From assembly GCA_020073495.1 (NCBI GenBank), contig JAIQFD010000001.1, positions 620,001 to 684,000 on the forward strand: DNA of 64,000 nt, written 5' to 3'. Every line of letters starts with the position of its first letter. Within the stretch, counting starts at the first letter, position 1. This stretch comes from Terriglobia bacterium (GTDB lineage Bacteria > Acidobacteriota > Terriglobia > Terriglobales > Acidobacteriaceae). The notes under the pieces were generated by a model. The model did not search any database, was not told the DNA's origin, and was given only the letters and a program-made list of their open reading frames with translations. The position numbers and the translations under genes are program-made. Positions 4,879-60,931 of this stretch are shown here, in pieces.

Positions 4879-6315
4879 CTATTTCTTCGTGGGAACCGGA
4901 CGTCTCGCTGCCGGTTTGGCTGCCGGCGCCGCCTTCTTTAGGTGCAGGTCCTCGTCGATCTGGTCCCGCACTGCCTGCGCCTCATGCCCGAAGCCGTCCA
5001 TCACCGCATCCACGGCGCGCACGGGGGCAGACCCCGGCACGCTGGCATTGAGCTGCGGCACAGTCTTTGCGGTCTTGAACAGCTGGATGTCGAGCCGGGT
5101 GTTGAAATTGTTCGGATCGGTCGCCGCCGCCTTCGCCCCTTTGCCAGGCATCGGTGGCGCCGGCTGGCCTGGGTCGGCAAGACCTGCCGCATTGGTGAAT
5201 AGGATGTAGTCGCAGCCCTTCTGCTTCGCCTCGGCCACGATCTGGTCCGGCGCATCCGTAGTGAGCGGGACGCTATCTATCTTCTTCAACGACAGCTCGT
5301 ACATCAGGTTCAGCCGCAGGTTGTCCGTGGGAAGGTATTGGTTCGTCTTGTCGGCGATCTTAACCACGCCGACCAGCAACGTGCCCCCTACCCTGGCCGG
5401 TGCAGGCGCGGCAGCGGGCGCCGGTGTAGGAGCCGCGGCTGGTGCAGGTGCTTCCTCCGCGGGCGCGCCCGCGACCTCGATAGGGATGCCCTGGCTGCAG
5501 CCGCCGGACGCCATGGCGCGCGGGTCGCCCATCATCGCCATGTAGTCGTTCACCTGACGATATCCGGCGGGAATGTCGAACAGCGCGGGGTTGAGGTTCG
5601 CGGTCGAAAGCTCCGTGACCTCCTCGGTCATGGTGAACGGATGGCCCTCCGCCACGTACGTGATCGTCTCTTTCAGTGGGAAGCCCAGGTACGTCGACCC
5701 ACCTTTCATGCGATACGCATCGCGGCATGCCGGACGAGGCCCACGTCCTCCTCCCATCCCGGCGGCAAAACGATGCGGCCCCGCCTCGCAGGTGAAATGC
5801 GGCGACAGGCTCACGTACCAGCCGTCGCGCTCCATCTTCGTTGACGTCTTCGAGCAGGCGTCGGGGCTGGGTTCCATGGACATGGAACTCTTGATGTGCC
5901 GCGCCTCCAGGCCGAACATCTTCTCCCGCTCTTTGGTGTCGATGACCGAGTTGACGATCGTCACCACGCCGCCCTTCTGCGGCGCTCCGCGGTCCGCCTG
6001 CTCTGCCGCTGCGCCCGCAGCCATGGCAGCGGAGGGGCTCATTGCCGGGCCGGCCATCTCGTCCATCGGCGTGATCATGTACGTCTTGGTGCAGACGTTG
6101 ATGGTGATGATGCGTTTCTGATCGCACTGCACGATGGTGGTCGTGCCCGGCATCCCCATCATGCCCGCCTCTTCGGTGCGCTGGCGCGCGCCCTTCACGT
6201 ACACCGTGTTCTCCATGGTGTGGCCCATGACCGTTTTGCGGGTCTTGATCTTGGTATCCGCCGAACACAGGCCCACCAGCACCACAATGACAATGACGAA
6301 TTTAAGAAAACGCAT
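4879..6315 (-). CDS. Secreted DUF4412-like protein with Pro/Ala linker
   Basis: Start chosen at the ATG at 6315 because AGGAGA lies 6 nt upstream and a signal peptide follows at once (MRFLKFVIVIVVLVGLCSA); in-frame sequence further upstream is noise. The protein has 478 residues. The N-terminal domain (about 20-270) resembles DUF4412-type lipoprotein/periplasmic proteins: GHTMENTVYVKGARQRTE, QCDQKRIITINVCTKTYMI, and a C-terminal part on TEEVTELSTANLNPALFDIPAGY. A Pro/Ala-rich linker (about 290-315) joins a C-terminal domain that includes QIVAEAKQKGCDYILFTN, a pattern seen in acidobacterial secreted proteins. The family is probably periplasmic and of unknown function. Confidence 0.8.
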   Translation of the reverse strand: MRFLKFVIVIVVLVGLCSADTKIKTRKTVMGHTMENTVYVKGARQRTEEAGMMGMPGTTTIVQCDQKRIITINVCTKTYMITPMDEMAGPAMSPSAAMAAGAAAEQADRGAPQKGGVVTIVNSVIDTKEREKMFGLEARHIKSSMSMEPSPDACSKTSTKMERDGWYVSLSPHFTCEAGPHRFAAGMGGGRGPRPACRDAYRMKGGSTYLGFPLKETITYVAEGHPFTMTEEVTELSTANLNPALFDIPAGYRQVNDYMAMMGDPRAMASGGCSQGIPIEVAGAPAEEAPAPAAAPTPAPAAAPAPARVGGTLLVGVVKIADKTNQYLPTDNLRLNLMYELSLKKIDSVPLTTDAPDQIVAEAKQKGCDYILFTNAAGLADPGQPAPPMPGKGAKAAATDPNNFNTRLDIQLFKTAKTVPQLNASVPGSAPVRAVDAVMDGFGHEAQAVRDQIDEDLHLKKAAPAAKPAARRPVPTKK

Positions 6316-6385
6316 GTCTCTTCTCCTGGATTGTGTAGCAATTCTGGTTTCCGGCTTGCCACTGGCCACTTGCGACTTGCGATCC

Positions 6386-7450
6386 TTACGCGCCGACCGC
6401 CTGTTCGCGCACGGTGATCCGGTCGCTGGTCTTGACGAACGACTTCACGTGGTCGGCCTTGCGGATCAGGTCCTCCAGGCTCTCGGGCGCCTTGATGTGC
6501 GTGACCACGCTGATGGCGAAAAGCAGCGGCCAGTCGTGCTGCTGGATGGCTTCCAGCATGAGCTCGCGGATCTTGTTGGCGAACTGTTTGGCGGATTCGG
6601 TCGCCGTAGTCGGCAGCAGCACAACGAACTCCGCGTCCCCGGTGCGCGCCAGCACGTCCGTATGGCGCACCCGGTTGCGCAACAGGTTGGCCACCGAGAC
6701 CACCAGCGCGTCGGCCACCTGGTCTCCCTGCTGCTCTCGGATCCGCTGCAAATTCTCCAGGTCGAACGTGATGACGCTCATCGGGACTTCGTATCGCTGG
6801 GAGCGCTTGCGCTCGCGGTCGGCGATATCCAGGAACGCGCGCCGGTTGATCAACCCGGTGAGGAGGTCCACGCGCGCCAGTTCCGGCTCGCGTTCATAGG
6901 CCATCTGGAGCTCGCGCTCGGTGCGGCTCCGCTCGGCCTCCGCCTTCTTCACCAGCGTGCGCTGCCGCGACAGTTCGAGCAGCGCTTCCGCCTGCCGCGC
7001 CAGCGCCCGCAGCGCATTCATCTGCTCTCCGGTCAGCTCCCGGGCCACGAAGTCGAGGACGCACAGCGTACCCAGCGCGTGCGTTCCGTCGGCCGTGAAC
7101 AGCGGGATCCCGGCGTAGAAACGGATCTTCGGCTCGTTGACCACCAGCGGGTTGGTGGCGAATCGAGGGTCCTGGAGCGCGTCCGGAATGATGAACAGGT
7201 CGGATTGCAGGATGGCGTACGAACAGAACGAGACGTCGCGCGAGCACTCCGTCTGGGTGATCCCCATCCGCGCCTTGAACCACTGGCGCTCGGCGTCGAT
7301 CAGGCTCAGCAAGGCGATCGGTGTGCGGCAGATCACAGACGCCAGCTGCGCCAGGTCATCGAAGACCTGTTCCGAAGCTGTATCCAGGATCTGATATGCG
7401 CGCAGAGCTGCGAGTCGACCTTCTTCGCCCTTGGGTCTTGGCGCCGGCAC
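6386..7450 (-). CDS. GAF domain protein with degenerate GGDEF
   Basis: The GTG at 7450 is chosen as start because GGAGG lies 5 nt upstream; longer in-frame starts would overlap the hicA gene. The 354-aa product has a GAF domain (about 15-165: RLAALRAYQILDTASEQVFDDLAQLA, VSFCSYAIL), a coiled linker (about 170-195) and a GGDEF-like domain beginning DLLTGLINRRAF. The active-site loop reads RTGDAEFVVLLP, so the canonical GGDEF is GDAEF: the second Gly and the catalytic-region Asp are replaced. Diguanylate cyclase activity is therefore unlikely; a regulatory or GTP-binding role is more plausible. No membrane segment is seen. Confidence 0.85.
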   Translation of the reverse strand: MPAPRPKGEEGRLAALRAYQILDTASEQVFDDLAQLASVICRTPIALLSLIDAERQWFKARMGITQTECSRDVSFCSYAILQSDLFIIPDALQDPRFATNPLVVNEPKIRFYAGIPLFTADGTHALGTLCVLDFVARELTGEQMNALRALARQAEALLELSRQRTLVKKAEAERSRTERELQMAYEREPELARVDLLTGLINRRAFLDIADRERKRSQRYEVPMSVITFDLENLQRIREQQGDQVADALVVSVANLLRNRVRHTDVLARTGDAEFVVLLPTTATESAKQFANKIRELMLEAIQQHDWPLLFAISVVTHIKAPESLEDLIRKADHVKSFVKTSDRITVREQAVGA

Positions 7451-7529
7451 CTGAGCCTCCGCGATCAGCCTACCAGCTTCTCTGGGGGGATTCCGATGGT
7501 ACTCGCAAAGGGGTGTGCGAGTCGAGAGG

Positions 7530-7757
7530 CTAGCGGCCCAAGGCGGCCAGAAACTCCTCCACCGTGAGCCCTGCCCGCGCAATGAGGGTTCGCAGCGTCC
7601 CACGTGCGACTTGGTCGTGATTCGGAACCGAAAGAGTAGCCATGTGACCGGGCTTGGTCAGGATGATGTGGCTGCCCTGCTGACGGACCACCCGCCAGCC
7701 CAGCGATTCGAATGTCTTGATCGCTTCTCGCGGTCGGAGGAGCGGGACCGGCGGCAT
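7530..7757 (-). CDS. hicA: HicA-family mRNA interferase toxin
   Basis: This 75-aa protein has the HicA layout: RPREAIKTFESLGWRVVRQQGSHIILTKPG with the active-site His in GSHIIL, then LSVPNHDQVARGTLRTLIARAGLTVEEFL. HicA has a dsRBD-like fold and cleaves mRNA during stress when its antitoxin is lost. The start codon overlaps the hicB stop (TGATG), so the two are translationally coupled. The antitoxin comes first here, the reverse of the classical hicAB order. Confidence 0.88.
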   Translation of the reverse strand: MPPVPLLRPREAIKTFESLGWRVVRQQGSHIILTKPGHMATLSVPNHDQVARGTLRTLIARAGLTVEEFLAALGR

Positions 7758-7969
7758 CAGTCAGCCACGTCGACTTGCACCTGGCGCGTCGTGACCGTCA
7801 GTGGTAAGCCGAGCTCCGCACGCGCCGCAAGGCACTGCCGGATCGCATCGCGCACGTTCTCTTCCGCTTCGCTCTCCGTCCGCCCCTGGCTGACGCAGCC
7901 GGGTATCGCAGGACACTCGGCGATGTACATTCCGTCTTCGTCGCGGTAGATGGTCACGGTGAAGGTCAT
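7757..7969 (-). CDS. hicB: HicB-family antitoxin, minimal form
   Basis: The 70-aa product starts at the ATG at 7969 (MTFTVTIYRDEDGMYIAECPAIPG), with GAGGGA about 11 nt upstream. YIAECPAIPGCVSQGRTESEAEENVRDAI is the conserved HicB partial-RNase-H core. There is no C-terminal helix-turn-helix or ribbon-helix-helix DNA-binding domain, so autoregulation would have to work through another protein or not at all. It lies directly upstream of, and overlaps, the toxin gene. Confidence 0.85.
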   Translation of the reverse strand: MTFTVTIYRDEDGMYIAECPAIPGCVSQGRTESEAEENVRDAIRQCLAARAELGLPLTVTTRQVQVDVAD

Positions 7970-8042
7970 TTCGACTATGTTCCCTCTAATCTCGGTCCGA
8001 TTGCAACCTTCGGCCCGCGATTGCGTCGCGGGACTCATGGCC

Positions 8043-8351
8043 TCAGACTTCGATCAGCACGTCGTCGCCCTCGATCTTGAGGGGATAGACCCCGACTTTC
8101 GCTCCGGGATTGTGCACCGCCTCGCCCGTCTTCGGGTCCCACATCCAGCCGTGCCAGGGACAGATCACCTTGCCGTCCATCACCACGCCCCCACCCAGCG
8201 GCCCGCCGCGGTGCAGGCATATGTTGTCCATGGCCGAGCAGGTGCCGTCCACGTTGGCGACGCAGATGACCTGCCCTTTGACCGTGAACTCCTTGGCTTG
8301 GTTCTCGCCCGGCAGGTCCGCCTTGGTCCCGATCTTCACGATTTCCGCCAT
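8043..8351 (-). CDS. Rieske 2Fe-2S ferredoxin-like protein
   Basis: A 102-aa single-domain Rieske protein. Cluster ligands are visible as CLHRGG and CPWHGW (Cys-X-His...Cys-X2-His). The start ATG at 8351 precedes MAEIVKIGTKADLPG; sequence upstream is intergenic repeat, not coding. Such small soluble Rieske proteins act as electron carriers for oxygenases or as nitrite-reductase small-subunit homologues. The nuoB gene lies upstream on the same strand but is separated from it by duplicated terminators, so the two are probably independent. Confidence 0.88.
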   Translation of the reverse strand: MAEIVKIGTKADLPGENQAKEFTVKGQVICVANVDGTCSAMDNICLHRGGPLGGGVVMDGKVICPWHGWMWDPKTGEAVHNPGAKVGVYPLKIEGDDVLIEV

Positions 8352-8466
8352 CTTCGCCTCGTTGCAGTCTGCAGTGTACGAAAACAGCGGGTCAAAGCAA
8401 AAGCCCGTCCTCACCACGAACTCACTGAGTACTGAGTACCGAGCACTGAGTACTTTCCAAATCAAA

Positions 8467-8488
8467 AGCCCGTCGATTCCGACGGGCT
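8467..8488 (-). terminator. Rho-independent terminator, downstream copy
   Basis: Stem AGCCCGTCG / CGACGGGCT followed on the minus strand by TTTTGATTT. It is the second of two copies downstream of nuoB. Confidence 0.6.
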
Positions 8489-8532
8489 CACTGAGTACTG
8501 AGTACCGAGTACTGAGTACTTTCCAAATCAAA

Positions 8533-8554
8533 AGCCCGTCGTTTCCGACGGGCT
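8533..8554 (-). terminator. Rho-independent terminator of nuoB
   Basis: Stem AGCCCGTCG / CGACGGGCT with loop TTTC, followed on the minus strand by TTTTGATTTGG. It lies about 30 bp after the nuoB stop. Confidence 0.65.
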
Positions 8555-8585
8555 CACTTGGTACCTGGTACTGGGTACTTGGTAC

Positions 8586-9146
<561 letters not shown>

Positions 9147-55990: not shown

Positions 55991-55998
55991 AGAACGCT
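55991..55998. repeat. Left target-site duplication AGAACGCT
   Basis: Matches GGAACGCT at 60924-60931 in 7 of 8 positions; both copies abut the inverted repeats directly. Confidence 0.6.
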
Positions 55999-56027
55999 GG
56001 TAGTGGGTCAGTTTCGTTTTCCACAGG
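55999..56027. repeat. Left terminal inverted repeat
   Basis: GGTAGTGGGTCAGTTT (55999-56014), then CGTTT, then TCCACAGG (56020-56027). Paired with 60895-60923. Confidence 0.75.
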
Positions 56028-56039
56028 TGGGGGTGTAAA

Positions 56040-56987
56040 GTGAAGCCCCCGAAGCCGCCTTCCACACAGCCCAAACCGAGACGGCTTCCCGCGAGGAAAG
56101 CCGTGACAATCATCGCCGGGTTCAAATGCTATGAAGGAATCGTGCTGTGTGCAGACACGCTAGAGACAGTTTCAAACCTATCAAAGCGCAATGTGCCAAA
56201 GCTGCGGTTTGAACCATCTGGCATTCCACACAAAGGCGATAGTTTGGCGGTGGCACTCTGTGGAGCCTCAGATACTGGACCATTTATTGATAAGGTGGTT
56301 GAAACCGCGTGGGAAGATGCACAGATCACGACTTCGCTTGATGAGGCGTGTGAGGAAATAGAAAAGAGCATCAAGCGCACCTATCGCGAGTTTGGGCAGA
56401 TTTATCAACCTGGATTCTGTCCGACCGCCGATCTGATTTATGGCGTCAAGATGCATGGCGCGTGCCGTCTCTTTAGCGCCAATGGCCCTCTCGTTAACGA
56501 AAAGGGTACTTATGACTCTGCGGGTGCCGGATATTACATGGCCGACTTCTTGGCAAAGAGAATGTACGGTCACCACTTAACCATTCATCAATGCGTGATT
56601 CTTGCTGCTTATATTCTGTTTCAAGCAAAAGAGCATGTGGACGGGTGCGGAGGCGACAGCAACATTGCTGTTCTACGCGACGATGGGGTCAGTGGATGGG
56701 TCGATTATCGCCGTGTCAATGCAATAACTGAACTGCTAGGGTACGCAGATCAGAGCACAGCAGAACTCTTGCTGACGGCTGCGAACATGGAATTGGATAG
56801 CGTGGAGTTTCAGAAAGACGGGAAGGAGAAAATAGAGTTCCTCGACGCCATCCGTATTGGCCAAAAGGAGCAACTAGAGCAACACAAGCCAACTTTCAGC
56901 AAATCTTTGGGTGGGCGCAAACGAGAGAAAACTGATTTCCTCGGTCTGCCACTGCCGCCAGACGAAGTCGAACCAGAAAACCAGTAA
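56040..56987 (+). CDS. Proteasome-like Ntn hydrolase
   Basis: 315 residues from a GTG at 56040. A stretch TIIAGFKCYEGIVLCADTLET matches the N-terminal beta strand pair of proteasome beta subunits/HslV, with T23 as the candidate nucleophile; later parts (SAGAGYYMADFL, CGGDSNIAVLRDDG) also fit the fold. A second GTG at 56103 with AGGA 5 nt upstream gives M-T-I-I-A-G, so Met removal would expose the Thr directly, as in HslV. The C-terminal 60 residues are charged and extended. No ATPase partner is in the insert. Its start lies 12 bp inside the left inverted repeat. Confidence 0.72.
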   Translation: MKPPKPPSTQPKPRRLPARKAVTIIAGFKCYEGIVLCADTLETVSNLSKRNVPKLRFEPSGIPHKGDSLAVALCGASDTGPFIDKVVETAWEDAQITTSLDEACEEIEKSIKRTYREFGQIYQPGFCPTADLIYGVKMHGACRLFSANGPLVNEKGTYDSAGAGYYMADFLAKRMYGHHLTIHQCVILAAYILFQAKEHVDGCGGDSNIAVLRDDGVSGWVDYRRVNAITELLGYADQSTAELLLTAANMELDSVEFQKDGKEKIEFLDAIRIGQKEQLEQHKPTFSKSLGGRKREKTDFLGLPLPPDEVEPENQ

Positions 56988-56990
56988 CGA

Positions 56991-57881
56991 CTAAGCGTGT
57001 TCCTTCAAGGCTTTCAGGGTCAGACTCCGCTCGATCTGCGAAACGGAAACGGTCGGCTTTGGCAGCAGAGCACACAGTTCCTCGATGCTCCACACATGGT
57101 CTGAAATTCCAGCCGCCATCGCGGGAGTGATTCTCAACGACTGATGGACGCGGACGAAGTTGTAATACATGTAGTGCAGGGCGACCGAGTGGCGGTGATT
57201 GTCCACCTTCTTTGAGAAACCATTGGTCAGCCGCGTGAATCTCCGCATGGACATACGCATGGTTAAATTCTGCCGCTCCACATAGGACGTGCTGACATGG
57301 GCAGGATCAGGATTCCCGGTCACAACTTTCATGTCGCAGCCGATGCACTTAGCGGGAGAGTAGCGGCGGGCCTCCTCATCGGAGGGAGCGCCATAGATTT
57401 TGTGAAGCATGGCGTAGTCGCAATCCAGTCCAAAGGCTCCCTCGACCGTATCCAAGTAAGCGCGGTGCGCGTCGGTAGTGATCTGCACGCGGCCCCGGAT
57501 GCGGTTGGCGCAGTCAGTCATAAAGTCCAAAGCCCAACCCGCATCACGTCCGCCAACTAGCCAACTCACACACACCTTCGTGTCGGCATCAATCGCAGTC
57601 CAGGTCCAAACATCTCCCCACCCTTCGGCCTTCTGCTCTGGCGTGGCATTCTTCTTCTTGCAGCCAACGAAGCACCAAATCTCATCGCACTGCAAACGGC
57701 GCACACGAAGATTGCGGACGGTTCGGTTGTGGTAATCGGCGCAGGCGCAGCCAATGTCAGATAGGAGTTTTACGACGGTATTTTTGGCGGCTCCGGTCAT
57801 GCGGACCGTGGCACGGATTGAGCAGCCTTCGATAAGGCAACTGACCACCCTGGCGCGGGTTTCGGAGTCCAAGCAATTCAT
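56991..57881 (-). CDS. IS1-type DDE transposase
   Basis: 296 residues: N-terminal HTH (about 18-42, EGCSIRATVRMTGAAKNTVVKLLSDIG), a Cys-containing segment and a DDE core with D66 in CDEIWCFVG, D137 in TTDAHRAYL and E202 in VERQNLTMRM. RQNLTMRMSMRRFTRLTNGFSKK is a typical IS1/IS1-like stretch. No inverted repeat directly flanks the gene; the nearest convincing pair is that of the whole 4.9-kb insert. It faces the Ntn hydrolase gene with 3 bp between stops. Confidence 0.87.
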   Translation of the reverse strand: MNCLDSETRARVVSCLIEGCSIRATVRMTGAAKNTVVKLLSDIGCACADYHNRTVRNLRVRRLQCDEIWCFVGCKKKNATPEQKAEGWGDVWTWTAIDADTKVCVSWLVGGRDAGWALDFMTDCANRIRGRVQITTDAHRAYLDTVEGAFGLDCDYAMLHKIYGAPSDEEARRYSPAKCIGCDMKVVTGNPDPAHVSTSYVERQNLTMRMSMRRFTRLTNGFSKKVDNHRHSVALHYMYYNFVRVHQSLRITPAMAAGISDHVWSIEELCALLPKPTVSVSQIERSLTLKALKEHA

Positions 57882-58040
57882 ACTGACTCTTATACCATAG
57901 CCGCTTTAGCATGTCAAGTGGTATGTTGTGGCATGAGCTTGTACTGTTGGCGCACCAGCTCCCAAAGCGGTCGTTCGCATCTCCAGCCAAAGCGAACGGC
58001 TAGAACGATTGCAATTTCAAAACCAAAAGCGAGAACTGCC

Positions 58041-58364
58041 ATGACAAATGACCGTTCATCCTGGGAAGAAGCAACTCGACTTTTCAGCAAATGGAAGCAG
58101 GAGTCTTGCAGTGTGCGACTCTTAGCAGATGGACCGCCGCTATCGCTTGTGTTGACCGGGCGCGTTACTGGGTTTGACGATCCATTTCTGACCATCGAGG
58201 GTGATGGGTTTACTTGTATCGCTGATCTCGACGGAGCGACCTTTGAAGATGAACACAAGCTCCCCGCCTTCCCCGTTTGCGTCAAAGTGACTGTTCGAGG
58301 GGAAGCGCGCATGGTACGAGAGTCATTCAAAGAGGTTTGTTTTATGATCTGTGAACTACCTTGA
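58041..58364 (+). CDS. Small unknown protein
   Basis: 107 residues from the ATG at 58041 (MTNDRSSWEEATRLFSKWKQESCSVRLLADG). Central part is beta-rich (LSLVLTGRVTGFDDPFLTIEGDGFTCIADLDGATFEDE), like a small barrel. No family is recognised. It lies upstream of a good plus-strand terminator. Confidence 0.68.
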   Translation: MTNDRSSWEEATRLFSKWKQESCSVRLLADGPPLSLVLTGRVTGFDDPFLTIEGDGFTCIADLDGATFEDEHKLPAFPVCVKVTVRGEARMVRESFKEVCFMICELP

Positions 58365-58394
58365 TTCCTGCGGTTTTGACGCGCCACAACGGTC

Positions 58395-58428
58395 ACCTGT
58401 AATATTCAGATTACAGGTCAGCGCTGAC
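58395..58428. promoter_or_regulatory. Two adjoining palindromes
   Basis: ACCTGTAAT-N6-ATTACAGGT (58395-58418) overlaps GTCAGCGCTGAC (58417-58428). Both are perfect. They lie between the 107-aa gene and its terminator and could be operators or RNA structures. Confidence 0.4.
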
Positions 58429-58446
58429 CTCGAATTTTCATAGAAG

Positions 58447-58466
58447 CCCCGCCTTTGGCAGCGGGG
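58447..58466 (+). terminator. Terminator after the 107-aa gene
   Basis: CCCCGC...GCGGGG followed by TTTCTTATTT. Nearly the same sequence occurs in reverse orientation at 59716-59733. Confidence 0.72.
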
Positions 58467-58478
58467 TTTCTTATTTGC

Positions 58479-58709
58479 CTAACCAGCAGCGGTTCGCCTG
58501 TATCGGTGACTAAATGGGCATGCTGGGTTGCCACTTCGGTGCTCGAAGTGGGCTCCGTTCTTGATTCCAGTCGGCCCCTCGCCCGCTTTATGTGCATCAA
58601 CCAATTCACCACATTTCGGACAATGGAACTCATTTCCTAATGCGGGGTTGAGTTGCCTAAGAGCCAACGCTACCTTGACGCTGATAACGCATTTTGTGAG
58701 TCGGGGCAT
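58479..58709 (-). CDS. Possible small zinc-binding protein, CoiA N-terminus-like
   Basis: 76 residues from the ATG at 58709. HCPKCGELVDAHKAGEG and AHFEHRSGNPACPFSH give a Cys-X2-Cys followed by His-X2-His and Cys/His, reminiscent of the N-terminal zinc part of CoiA-like proteins. The pattern is too ordered for a chance antisense frame, but the gene is short and the similarity is a personal reading. Confidence 0.42.
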   Translation of the reverse strand: MPRLTKCVISVKVALALRQLNPALGNEFHCPKCGELVDAHKAGEGPTGIKNGAHFEHRSGNPACPFSHRYRRTAAG

Positions 58710-58747
58710 CGGGGGCAATTATCTCCCCAAATCCTGAGCCGTACTAG

Positions 58748-58912
58748 TGTTTCTTCCACGGGGAGGAAGCCAGATTCACATTTTGCATTTTGCCGAAGTG
58801 GAAAGGCATCGGAGTTATCCAAGACGGCCCAGATGCACCGATGGATGTGGAGCAGACGGCCGAGTTTATCGTCAAGCGCATGGCGATGATGGTCAGACAA
58901 GTGGAACTGTAG
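58748..58912 (+). pseudogene. Possible remnant of a coding region
   Basis: The plus frame ending in TAG at 58910 reads CFFHGEEARFTFCILPKWKG then IGVIQDGPDAPMDVEQTAEF and IVKRMAMMVRQVEL, which looks protein-like, but a stop lies just before it and no convincing start exists except TTG at 58790. It may be the end of a decayed gene. Confidence 0.35.
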
Positions 58913-59029
58913 TTGCCGCCTTTCGGATTCCCCTCAATTAAATCACGCACGTCAACTCGGACCCGCGTTATCATTTCCGTCTGAAACAAAAAGTTCAGGC
59001 GACGGCTTAGTTGAAAGGCGGGATTAGCC

Positions 59030-59704
59030 ATGAAGCGGATCAGTAGCGTTCTCGTTCTGCTCGTGATGGTGGCTGTTGGAACAACATCGCAAGAAACGGC
59101 CAAACAAGCGGCTCCCGCCAAGCAGGGATTCGAGGCGCTAGATGAATTTCTGAAGGAACAACGACAGCCGCCTCCGAACTGGTCTTGGCAGGAGTCCTGT
59201 AAGAAGCTCATCGGCGTCAGGGATAGGTTGTTAGACGATTTAGCGAAGCCGGCCAGCGTCGATGAGAACGAGCTTGTAGTTTCCAAGGGTTTTGCAGACA
59301 CATGTATCCGACGTGCACTGATGGAGACGCCTCCGTACACCAGAGAGCACATGTCCGTAGTCTTGGATGGCTACACGATTTTGAACATCGCTGAGGTGAT
59401 CGACCATTGGAAGAAATCCGCTGTCGAATATGACAAGCTGGTGGAGAAGTACAACGCCCTAGTCGAGCGATACAACGCACTCGCAACCCTTTCTTCCCAA
59501 ATGCAACTGATAGACAAGATCCACGAAAACGCGATGCAGCAGGCGCGGATGCAGATGCTCTATACGCAAGAGCAGTTGAGATATTGGACATGGCGCTCCC
59601 AATCTCAGGCGGTGCCACAGCAAACTGGTCCTGTTAACTGCTCGGTGACAATGAACACTACCGGCGATGGCAGGTTCACGCAGGGGCAAGTAAACTGCCA
59701 CTAA
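59030..59704 (+). CDS. Secreted coiled-coil unknown protein
   Basis: 224 residues with a signal peptide (MKRISSVLVLLVMVAVGTTSQ), a helical part with coiled-coil repeats (about 130-180, KSAVEYDKLVEKYNALVERYNALATLSSQM) and a Gln/Asn/Thr-rich tail with two Cys (PVNCSVTMNTTGDGRFTQGQVNC). No family is recognised. It probably acts in the periplasm. Confidence 0.78.
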   Translation: MKRISSVLVLLVMVAVGTTSQETAKQAAPAKQGFEALDEFLKEQRQPPPNWSWQESCKKLIGVRDRLLDDLAKPASVDENELVVSKGFADTCIRRALMETPPYTREHMSVVLDGYTILNIAEVIDHWKKSAVEYDKLVEKYNALVERYNALATLSSQMQLIDKIHENAMQQARMQMLYTQEQLRYWTWRSQSQAVPQQTGPVNCSVTMNTTGDGRFTQGQVNCH

Positions 59705-59715
59705 CAAATAGAAAA

Positions 59716-59733
59716 CCCCGCTGCCAGGCGGGG
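59716..59733 (-). terminator. Terminator of the 71-aa minus-strand gene
   Basis: On the minus strand CCCCGCC-TGG-CAGCGGGG is followed by TTTTCTATTT. It also ends the plus-strand gene at 59704 poorly. Confidence 0.65.
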
Positions 59734-59823
59734 CTAACTGCGGTGCACATCCAAATTGTATAAACGGAGTGTGCGCTGTGCAAGATATGATCCTCAATAG
59801 TGAACAGGACCGTTGGCGAGAAA

Positions 59824-60039
59824 TCAAACTGGCCGAATATGCTTCTCGAAGTAATCACGAAACATTTTCACATCATGCTTCGCCGCAAACTGAAGCGCCT
59901 CTAAGCGCTGAGCGGTCATCGGCTCCTTGTCCAGAACCGCATACTGGAGAGCAGTGACCTCAACTTCAAGTTTAGTGAGCGCGGTGATGACATCCGTTCG
60001 TAGCTGGGCAACTGCCTTTCTAAGGTCGTCTTCCGGCAT
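59824..60039 (-). CDS. Small helical unknown protein
   Basis: 71 residues from the ATG at 60039, with AAAGGAA 5 nt upstream (MPEDDLRKAVAQLRTDVITALTKLEVEVTALQYAVL). The sequence is amphipathic and all-helical. It faces away from the TIR gene; the 50-bp gap could hold a divergent promoter. Confidence 0.65.
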   Translation of the reverse strand: MPEDDLRKAVAQLRTDVITALTKLEVEVTALQYAVLDKEPMTAQRLEALQFAAKHDVKMFRDYFEKHIRPV

Positions 60040-60089
60040 ACGGTTCCTTTCTTTTGACTGAGGTATGATAGGCGCGTGAAGTCTAAACC

Positions 60090-60566
60090 ATGACGCCATA
60101 CAGTGTGTTTGTAAGCCACAGCATGAGGCAGGAAGACTTGGGAATCGTCTACACCGCCAACCAGGATGCATACGCCCGTGGAATCACCTGCTACATCGCC
60201 GAGAGGGATTGGCAGTTCGGACAGTCTTTGCCCGCCAAGATCGACAAAGCAATTCGCGACTGCGATTGCTTTGTAGCTTTCCTGACCCAAGGCGGCGCGC
60301 ATTCCGCATTTGTTAATCAAGAAATCGGTCATGCAGTTGGCTGCAAGAAGCTGCGCATTTTAGTGGTTGAGCAAGGTGTACAGGTACAGGGATTCGATGT
60401 CGGCAACGAGTACATAAGCCTCGACAGGGCGAACCCATGGGACGCGATAAGCAAGCTAAATACCTATCTGTCTCAGCGACAGTTGGCGAAGGAGCAGCAA
60501 CGGAACGCTGGGTTATTCGTGCTGGTCGTTGTTGGGCTCTTGGCTCTGTTTGGAGGGAGTGAATAG
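60090..60566 (+). CDS. TIR-domain protein with C-terminal membrane anchor
   Basis: 158 residues. TIR pattern: YSVFVSHSMRQEDLG (strand A/box 1), GITCYIAERDWQFGQSLPAKIDKAIRDCDCFVAFLT, and SAFVNQEIGHAVGCKKLRILVV, in which E78 fits the catalytic Glu of NAD-hydrolysing TIR domains. A hydrophobic segment (140-154, AGLFVLVVVGLLALF) ends the protein. TIR proteins in bacteria often act in antiviral defence. No second subunit of Thoeris or of other known TIR systems is adjacent. Confidence 0.8.
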   Translation: MTPYSVFVSHSMRQEDLGIVYTANQDAYARGITCYIAERDWQFGQSLPAKIDKAIRDCDCFVAFLTQGGAHSAFVNQEIGHAVGCKKLRILVVEQGVQVQGFDVGNEYISLDRANPWDAISKLNTYLSQRQLAKEQQRNAGLFVLVVVGLLALFGGSE

Positions 60567-60572
60567 CGGGGG

Positions 60573-60845
60573 TTAACTCGGCCTTCTCTTCTTCCAACGC
60601 GTTCTGGCGGCCTTTACTGCGACCTTCCGGCGCTGTTCACGGGTCATGGTCTTGAGGCGGCGTTTCCCACCGATTAGGCCCCCCTTGCGGCCCATAGCGG
60701 CCATGTACTCGGAGAGGTTAGCTGGCGTAGAGCCTTCTGGTATGTGTGCTTTTTGCGGCTCAGGCGTCTCGCCGGTCGAGCGGTCTACAATCCACTTGGC
60801 GAGTTGGTTGGGATCACGGGGGCGCTTTCCCTTGCCGACTGTCAT
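60573..60845 (-). CDS. Basic KGG-motif protein
   Basis: 90 residues from the ATG at 60845 (MTVGKGKRPRDPNQLAKWIVDRSTG); an ATG at 60854 is an alternative. The C-terminal half, NLSEYMAAMGRKGGLIGGKRRLKTMTREQRRKVAVKAARTRWKKRR, is strongly basic with the KGG/GGK pattern found in small proteins of mobile elements, possibly nucleic-acid binding. It lies near the right inverted repeat. Confidence 0.72.
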   Translation of the reverse strand: MTVGKGKRPRDPNQLAKWIVDRSTGETPEPQKAHIPEGSTPANLSEYMAAMGRKGGLIGGKRRLKTMTREQRRKVAVKAARTRWKKRRPS

Positions 60846-60894
60846 AGGTTCCATCCTGCCACATCCCAGCCATGTCCCGCTACCTCCCACTAGC

Positions 60895-60923
60895 CCTGTG
60901 GATATTCAAACTGACCCACTACC
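60895..60923. repeat. Right terminal inverted repeat
   Basis: CCTGTGGA (60895-60902), TATTC, AAACTGACCCACTACC (60908-60923). Reverse complement of the left repeat except for the 5-bp middle. Confidence 0.75.
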
Positions 60924-60931
60924 GGAACGCT
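60924..60931. repeat. Right target-site duplication GGAACGCT
   Basis: Seven of eight bases equal to the left copy at 55991-55998. Confidence 0.6.

Follow-up and report, generated by a model that had tools for sequence, protein, structure and literature searches.

Positions 55999-60923 of a 64,000-nucleotide stretch of a Terriglobia bacterium genome (contig JAIQFD010000001.1 of assembly GCA_020073495.1, positions 620,001 to 684,000; hereafter the window) form a 4,925-bp IS1-type transposon with passenger genes, including one for a proteasome-like hydrolase with an N-terminal threonine and one for a TIR-domain protein. A repeat search places the 29-nt terminal inverted repeats at 55999-56027 (plus strand, the transposase-downstream end) and 60895-60923 (minus strand, the transposase-upstream end); they match at 25 of 29 positions (86%) and have GGTAGTG tips at both ends. 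Immediately outside, the sequence reads AGAACGCT on the left (55991-55998) and GGAACGCT on the right (60924-60931), an 8-bp target duplication whose copies agree at seven of eight positions. In 500-base segments across the 50-64 kb stretch, the GC content is 0.50-0.58 inside the element and 0.59-0.71 outside it. An initial annotation, made from the letters of the window, had described an IS1-type transposon with TIR and proteasome-like passengers, a flanking duplication and a GC-poor interior; all of these stand, as do the presence and length of the terminal repeats, for which it had counted 24 matches rather than 25. It had also expected the beta-propeller and DUF92 genes on either side to be adjacent where the insert is missing, and in a congener (locus L004) they are, with nothing between them and no sign of other boundaries; the L004 spacer is too diverged at the junction for a single AACGCT copy to be read, and the boundaries are therefore not resolved to the base.

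The transposase gene (56991-57881, minus strand) is a single open reading frame (ORF) of 296 codons, tail-to-tail with the hydrolase gene. It matches Pfam DDE_Tnp_IS1 at 26.0 bits (cut-off 24.1), and its best NCBIfam model is transpos_IS1, at 54.8 bits and below the equivalog cut-off of 100. Residues D66, D137 and E202, which the initial annotation had singled out, are invariant in all 57 aligned family transposases, the window's included, and several plasmid relatives are annotated as 'IS1 family transposase'. IS1 terminal repeats have GGnnnTG-type tips as a rule, which both ends of the element fit, and the 8-9-bp duplications of IS1 are matched by an exact 8-bp duplication at 66 of 128 related loci, the window's own copy agreeing at 7/8. 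Classical IS1 elements have two ORFs fused by frameshifting; the uninterrupted ORF seen here fits the single-ORF groups only, the nearest of which we take to be the ISMhu11-like group of ISfinder and TnPedia. With the TIR and hydrolase genes lying between the terminal repeats, the element has the organization of a transporter insertion sequence (tIS).

The hydrolase gene (56103-56987, plus strand), placed by profiles, start codons and a structural model, has a GTG start directly before the codon for Thr1 and a Shine-Dalgarno-like GCGAGGAAAG upstream, giving 293 residues once the methionine is removed; an ORF start further upstream, at 56040, is probably unused. The TIR-domain protein (60090-60566, plus strand) has 158 residues and, by eye, a C-terminal hydrophobic stretch. 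It matches Pfam TIR_2 at E 1.1e-11 and the ThsB models of PADLOC at E 6e-8, and has no PDB sequence match at E 0.01. It is the only immunity-type gene that family scans find in the element. Thoeris was considered and rejected, there being no ThsA-like partner among the element's eight scanned ORFs (Pfam, PADLOC). A small basic ORF (60573-60845, minus strand, start chosen by eye) has homologues in related elements; neither Pfam nor NCBIfam matches it, and the PDB offers nothing credible.

The ORF list gives three further candidates: 57918-58364 (plus strand, 148 residues), a weak candidate gene with no Pfam or NCBIfam family match; 59030-59704 (plus strand, 224 residues), with a signal-peptide-like start and, by eye, a coiled-coil look, found in the window's genome only among 200 genomes searched; and 59824-60039 (minus strand), 71 residues if the MPEDD start, chosen by eye, is correct, with no credible family. 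The 224-residue ORF is flanked by near-identical terminator-like sequences in inverted orientation (58456-58477 and 59705-59726; 22 nt, 91%), which may mark the ends of a cassette. Another inverted repeat, perfect over 15 nt (57654-57668 and 60336-60350), links the transposase gene to the TIR gene and may be due to chance.

A family of cargo-bearing IS1-type elements

Relatives of the transposase were collected from a scan of genome contigs (at least 80 loci), from a sample of 396 genomes of the window's phylum (matches in 52) and from 18 plasmid records. At 66 of 128 transposase loci we found inverted repeats matching at 14 or more of 20 positions, GGTAGTG-like tips and an exact 8-bp duplication, with the window, at 7/8, standing outside these 66. 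When the same 128 sequences were rotated, none combined all three features, and 13 had a repeat pair reaching 14/20 or more whose tips were different. A mirrored-sequence control was discarded because reversal keeps both inverted and direct repeats (17/44 and 71/128 in the mirrored sets). The concern that the 29-bp repeats of the window arose by chance is thus answered by the family, in which they bound transposase-bearing elements.

For further comparison we used 67 elements: 64 with exact duplications, the window (7/8), L072 (7/8) and L026 (no duplication). L120 (a duplicate of L117) and L097 (a 377-bp remnant) were left out, and L024 is represented by the inner of its two nested elements. 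The 67 range from 1.77 to 4.93 kb with a median of 3.2 kb; since every member reaches at least 1.77 kb, each has space for cargo, and cargo is the rule. The reading of the window's element as an IS1-based transporter element therefore holds, and only its supposed oddity of length falls away, 4.9 kb being the upper end of the range of a group in which all 67 members compared have cargo space. Shorter forms outside the 67 are the L097 remnant, a 708-bp remnant (L180) and a 1,323-bp element (L175).

The usual order of parts is terminal repeat, small basic ORF, variable slot, transposase, second slot and terminal repeat. Homologues of the small basic ORF were found in 54 of the 67 elements with a profile built from 27, and 53 of the 54 lie upstream of the transposase on the same strand. 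They code for about 65-105 residues with a tail of the type GGLKGGKARA..LS...R..IAKKAA.ARW, and the homologue in L123 is annotated 'histone H1'.

A scan of viral contigs with the transposase gave 13 further loci outside the 67, six of them bounded. The bounded ones include the L180 remnant and L175 (5518-6840), which is near-minimal, with terminal repeats, a truncated-looking small ORF, the transposase and no cargo. In L168, L170 and L172, contigs classed as viral in IMG/VR, IS1 elements carry the hydrolase, and IS1 transposons with hydrolase may also ride on phages. At L024 (4504-8945) one IS1 element (5693-8922, duplication GGATTTCA) is nested in the terminal repeat of another, whose target duplication is GAGATTCT.

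The hydrolase and its exchange between transposon families

The Pfam Proteasome model alone matches the window's hydrolase at E 0.0067, below cut-off; a profile of eight hydrolase homologues reaches 20S beta subunits at 9e-11, bearing out the initial description of a proteasome-like protein. We found 60 homologues, and the position of Thr1 could be placed in 58. Residue 1 is threonine in 57 of these and serine in one, the product of L184 (4683-5579); Asp17 is present in 59 of 59 sequences and Lys32 in 56 of 59, the other three having arginine. The window's protein has all three residues (T, D, K), as expected of N-terminal nucleophile (Ntn) hydrolases with Thr1, Asp17 and a Lys33 equivalent. 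All 58 genes have ATG, GTG or TTG immediately before the codon for residue 1; the frame is open further upstream in most, the frames in L113 and L114 offer no alternative start, and a four-base Shine-Dalgarno-like string lies upstream of 36 of the 58 genes. From these patterns we predict that the hydrolase starts Met-Thr1 with removal of the methionine, as is known for HslV.

An AlphaFold2 model built from the eight-sequence alignment (predicted local distance difference test score, pLDDT, 79.5; predicted template-modelling score, pTM, 0.77) has the proteasome fold. Anbu is its closest Foldseek match (E 5.5e-12; Anbu and 20S beta subunits together range from 5.5e-12 to 1e-9), and by VIA Z score Anbu and 20S beta tie at about 23. 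In L169 the slot protein (6882-7673) has an M-T start, a Pfam Proteasome match at E 8e-4, which is the main support for its assignment, and weak scores with the family profiles; it has no PDB sequence match, a model made without an alignment is uninformative (pLDDT 37.6), and the protein may be a hydrolase that has diverged very far.

The search for the hydrolase covered genomes from the phylum and class to which the window belongs. A 19-sequence profile run on 399 genomes from the class gave 55 rows in 48 genomes; eight weak or fragmentary rows were left out, and the 47 hydrolases examined are the window's and those of 46 fetched loci. Neighbouring transposases were sought within about 1.2 kb with IS1 queries and with queries from IS1595, reportedly a family related to IS1. 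Fifteen of the 47 have an IS1 transposase for a neighbour and 14 have one of the IS1595 type; of these 29, five are partial. One more of the 47, that of L214, lies in an element with no transposase. Repeats of at least 15/20 with an exact 8-bp duplication enclose 20 of the 46 fetched loci; in a rotated control of 44 loci none were enclosed, against 18 of the same 44 in their real order. Among eight close IS1 elements the hydrolase gene is just behind the transposase gene on the opposite strand. Searches at E 1e-3 found no homologue in plasmids (three queries) or phages (one query), and no AAA+ partner recurs beside the hydrolase.

The transposase-less element of L214 (4028-5438, 1,411 bp) has 20/20 ends, is flanked by an exact duplication of 8 bp and carries the hydrolase and a second ORF; it is probably non-autonomous. 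At L113 (3994-10062) a hydrolase homologue with no transposase has imuB-like (IMS), SRAP and KAP NTPase genes as neighbours, a setting resembling SOS repair.

Hydrolases and transposases have diverged to very different extents. Among 13 IS1 elements from the window's clade, identity is 0.67-0.92 (median 0.76) for the transposase and 0.13-0.42 (median 0.21) for the hydrolase, with a correlation of r 0.18. The two complete elements L024 and L027 share 0.85 of their transposase and 0.19 of their hydrolase; the extreme pair is L023 and L027 (0.92 and 0.21), where the contig stops within the L023 hydrolase gene. The window's hydrolase shares 49% identity over 302 aligned columns with its counterpart in an IS1595 element (L184) and 31-33% with the hydrolases of the sister IS1 elements L024 and L026; at the DNA level, similarity between the window and L184 is confined to part of the hydrolase gene. 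In a tree of 58 hydrolases, from which L182 and L183 (repeats of L028 and L024) as well as L210 and L216 (Thr1 not placeable) were left out, the window's sequence branches together with that of L184 (support 100/95). Rows from IS1 and IS1595 are interspersed, with nine changes where one would suffice, and the IS1 label does not cluster clearly on it (17 changes against a shuffled mean of 19.5, with 69 of 500 shuffles as low). Because the hydrolases are far more divergent than the transposases and group across both transposon families, we conclude from this comparison that their alleles have been exchanged, and that the hydrolase is a recurrent, exchangeable passenger of IS1 and IS1595 transposons.

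Cargo genes and the role of the hydrolase

We scanned 136 cargo ORFs, leaving out the small ORFs, transposases, hydrolases and most of the shortest ORFs, and as a control 126 flanking ORFs, one per flank, which are longer than the cargo ORFs (median 270 residues). At E 0.01 the Pfam families in the cargo include the helix-turn-helix (HTH) family HTH_3 (18), Peptidase_M78 (ImmA/IrrE; 8), DUF3467 (7), Gp49/HigB-like (3), Mrr_cat (2) and SocA/Panacea (2); PADLOC gives capH (14), RmrA models (up to 11) and PD-Lambda-2_B (8). No PADLOC or Pfam family matches more than two flanking ORFs, and the Pfam matches listed for these are mostly metabolic; single defence-type genes occur in the flanks too, for example one type I specificity subunit. 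Twenty larger cargo proteins were scanned singly and 11 have a PADLOC match at 1e-5. Strong cases in the cargo are, by PADLOC, RmrA in L126 (3e-191) and L161 (2e-58), PD-Lambda-2_B in L123 (1e-49) and L135 (8e-41), HEC-04 in L031 (1e-54), PDC-S42 in L151 (3e-27), and PDC-S02 (5e-26) and type IV Mrr (6e-24) in L076; L056 carries a methyltransferase with an Mrr-like end. The RES toxin and Xre antitoxin genes of L125 (5383-6221), on an Acidiphilium plasmid, adjoin a bounded IS1 element; they were rejected as cargo, being nearly all outside it.

Immunity- and toxin-antitoxin-type genes thus recur, as a trend, in the cargo of the family, unlike in the flanks. The initial suggestion that the cargo might be a defence module gains support at this level, as a trend across the family; the window's own element may carry such a module.

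We propose that the terminal repeats are where the transposase acts, producing 8-bp duplications, as the structure of the elements suggests, and that the small basic protein probably binds DNA, at the ends or with the transpososome. A methionine aminopeptidase would expose Thr1 of the hydrolase, and Thr1, Asp17 and Lys32 would then form an active Anbu/20S-beta-like amide hydrolase. The slots would acquire genes that help the element persist in the population, with the hydrolase and the TIR protein carried because they pay for their transport; the benefit would most likely be action against rival mobile DNA or phages, or addiction. Taken as a whole, with these mechanistic steps included, the account of an IS1-type cargo transposon with an exchanged hydrolase passenger is in our judgement probably correct.

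Several observations weigh against parts of this account. Apart from a 34-residue remnant, the window's transposase is the only full copy in the host genome; with this and a duplication of 7/8 there is no sign of recent movement, and because the duplication is only 7/8 the element may be old. The ORFs were chosen mechanically and some may not be genes. TIR relatives occur in four of 199 other genomes at E 1e-10, and all four, including one at 66% identity, lie outside recognised IS1 or IS1595 elements. Of the 47 hydrolases, 17 have neither an IS1 nor an IS1595 transposase beside them, some of these being at contig ends (L196 and L205, for example). Defence is not implied at the transposase-less loci, where 83 of 109 listed neighbouring ORFs were scanned and no family exceeds 3 of the 83 among the matches listed (25 of 107 families). 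The hydrolase is missing from 58 of the 67 bounded elements; L031, L041 and L061, whose transposases are 71-74% identical with matches ending near residues 272-276, show none. Many branches of the hydrolase tree are long, with unsettled bootstrap values, and we rely on the mixture of labels and the identity figures, not on single placements. As for the cargo, the RmrA- and capH-type counts partly reflect common HTH domains, RmrA being known to us here as a PADLOC name only; PADLOC families touched at E 0.01 number 180 for the flanking ORFs and 294 for the cargo; nine of the 20 larger cargo proteins have no PADLOC match at 1e-5; and the hydrolase itself has none at E 1.

The absence of the hydrolase from most elements, together with alleles that cross transposase families, argues for a passenger that has a selectable effect in its own right, and a role in conflict or addiction is suggested by the HTH/ImmA, toxin-antitoxin and restriction genes of sister elements. 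That it acts against phages or competing mobile DNA, or in addiction, is, from the allele diversity and this company, a first guess that may well prove wrong. More specifically, the Thr1 hydrolases could be an exchangeable, allele-diverse weapon or addiction module, with IS1 and IS1595 elements trading alleles at a preferred slot behind the transposase, that protects the element or its host from phages or competing mobile DNA by cleaving specific proteins without an unfoldase; we put this forward tentatively, as a possibility. If true, it would make this a branch of the proteasome family specialised for conflict between genomes.

Alternatively, the hydrolase could be a dedicated transposition factor that trims or degrades the transposase or a host factor, and so sets the transposition rate or dismantles the transpososome. 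Its near-constancy within one transposase group agrees with this: it is present in 14 of 15 IS1 loci with transposases at least 69.7% identical, a match reaching residue 292 or beyond, and downstream DNA present (13 by profile and L169 by Pfam; L073 lacks it; L177, which nearly repeats L170, and L120 are uncounted). Of 40 transposon-linked hydrolases, 32 are tail-to-tail with the transposase, three head-to-head and five on the same strand, and some elements have room for little except these two genes, such as the IS1595 elements L119, L204, L209 and L212 (1,971-2,149 bp; the content of L119 was read directly, that of the others judged by size). A co-adapted partner would be expected to track its transposase, however, and hydrolases about 20% identical accompany transposases 85-92% identical; the alleles also group across two transposase families, and most of the more distant IS1 elements lack the gene altogether. 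We consider a transposition factor doubtful.

It is unlikely that the inner genes are neutral passengers picked up by chance, their defence-like look being coincidental. Several of the element's ORFs have no relatives or families, and cargo varies across most elements, with PADLOC silent on nearly half of the larger proteins scanned, as such passengers might lead one to expect; yet cargo families recur as flanking genes do not, and nearly all of the roughly 60 hydrolases keep their active-site residues and start codon despite an identity of about 20%, contrary to neutral decay. Quite improbable is a second mobile layer, in which the hydrolase belongs to a small hidden unit that inserts beside transposase genes and for which the IS elements are mere targets. 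The partial DNA similarity between the window and L184 fits such a unit, as does the transposase-less element of L214, but the ends of the latter look IS1595-like by eye, so that it may be a transposase-deleted IS1595 element, and a repeat search of the window found nothing bounding the hydrolase alone (this search was not made systematically in the other elements). That there is no transposon at all, only chance inverted repeats around a horizontally acquired island, can practically be set aside: the imperfect duplication and single genomic copy would suit it, but the same termini, gene order and 8-bp duplications appear at dozens of independent loci and the insert is absent from the congener.

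An IS1-type cargo transposon with an exchanged hydrolase passenger thus remains our preferred reading. It gives a poorly understood proteasome-related family a recurrent setting, beside a transposase, on two transposon families and exchanged, and the simple elements of about 2 kb make the function of the hydrolase directly testable.

Comparison with known systems

The elements resemble IS1 insertion sequences in their IS1-type DDE transposase, GGTAGTG-type tips and 8-bp duplication. They differ from compact IS1 in having one uninterrupted transposase ORF, an additional conserved small basic ORF, a length of 1.77-4.93 kb and passenger genes. Insertion sequences with passenger genes are already known and are termed tIS, after Siguier 2009, in the portions consulted of three papers (PMC3129680, PMC7986276, PMC5704250), one of which describes tISCpe8 of the IS1595 family (PMC5704250); a proteasome-like passenger is unexpected. 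The elements described here share with tIS the presence, inside the IS ends, of passengers unrelated to transposition, and are set apart in that all 67 have cargo space and that one passenger family is common to IS1 and IS1595 and exchanged between them.

In the available parts of Fuchs 2021 (PMC8665760), 22 new subfamilies of proteasome homologues are described with no genomic context suggesting a function, and phage transmission is reported for two homologues, PPH and AAH. The hydrolase is like Anbu and these homologues, so far as those parts describe them, in its fold, its Thr1/Asp17/Lys set and in that no AAA+ partner is seen; it differs in its length of about 290 residues, its Met-Thr1 start and its carriage on transposons, a comparison made at the level of the group. 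In the one library searched, and among the matches listed, we found no report joining a proteasome homologue to a transposon and none of defence cargo in IS1 elements. The TIR protein is like ThsB of Thoeris in its TIR_2 domain and its matches to the ThsB models, and differs in having no ThsA-like partner among the scanned ORFs of the element.

Tn7-like transposons carry defence cargo, according to the parts consulted of one account (PMC8649781). The IS1-type group resembles them as a carrier of many defence genes, and its members seem to transport immunity-type genes in compact form, as much larger elements have been described as doing; unlike Tn7-like transposons, they are IS1-type, measure a few kb, have one or two short cargo slots and lack Tn7 machinery.

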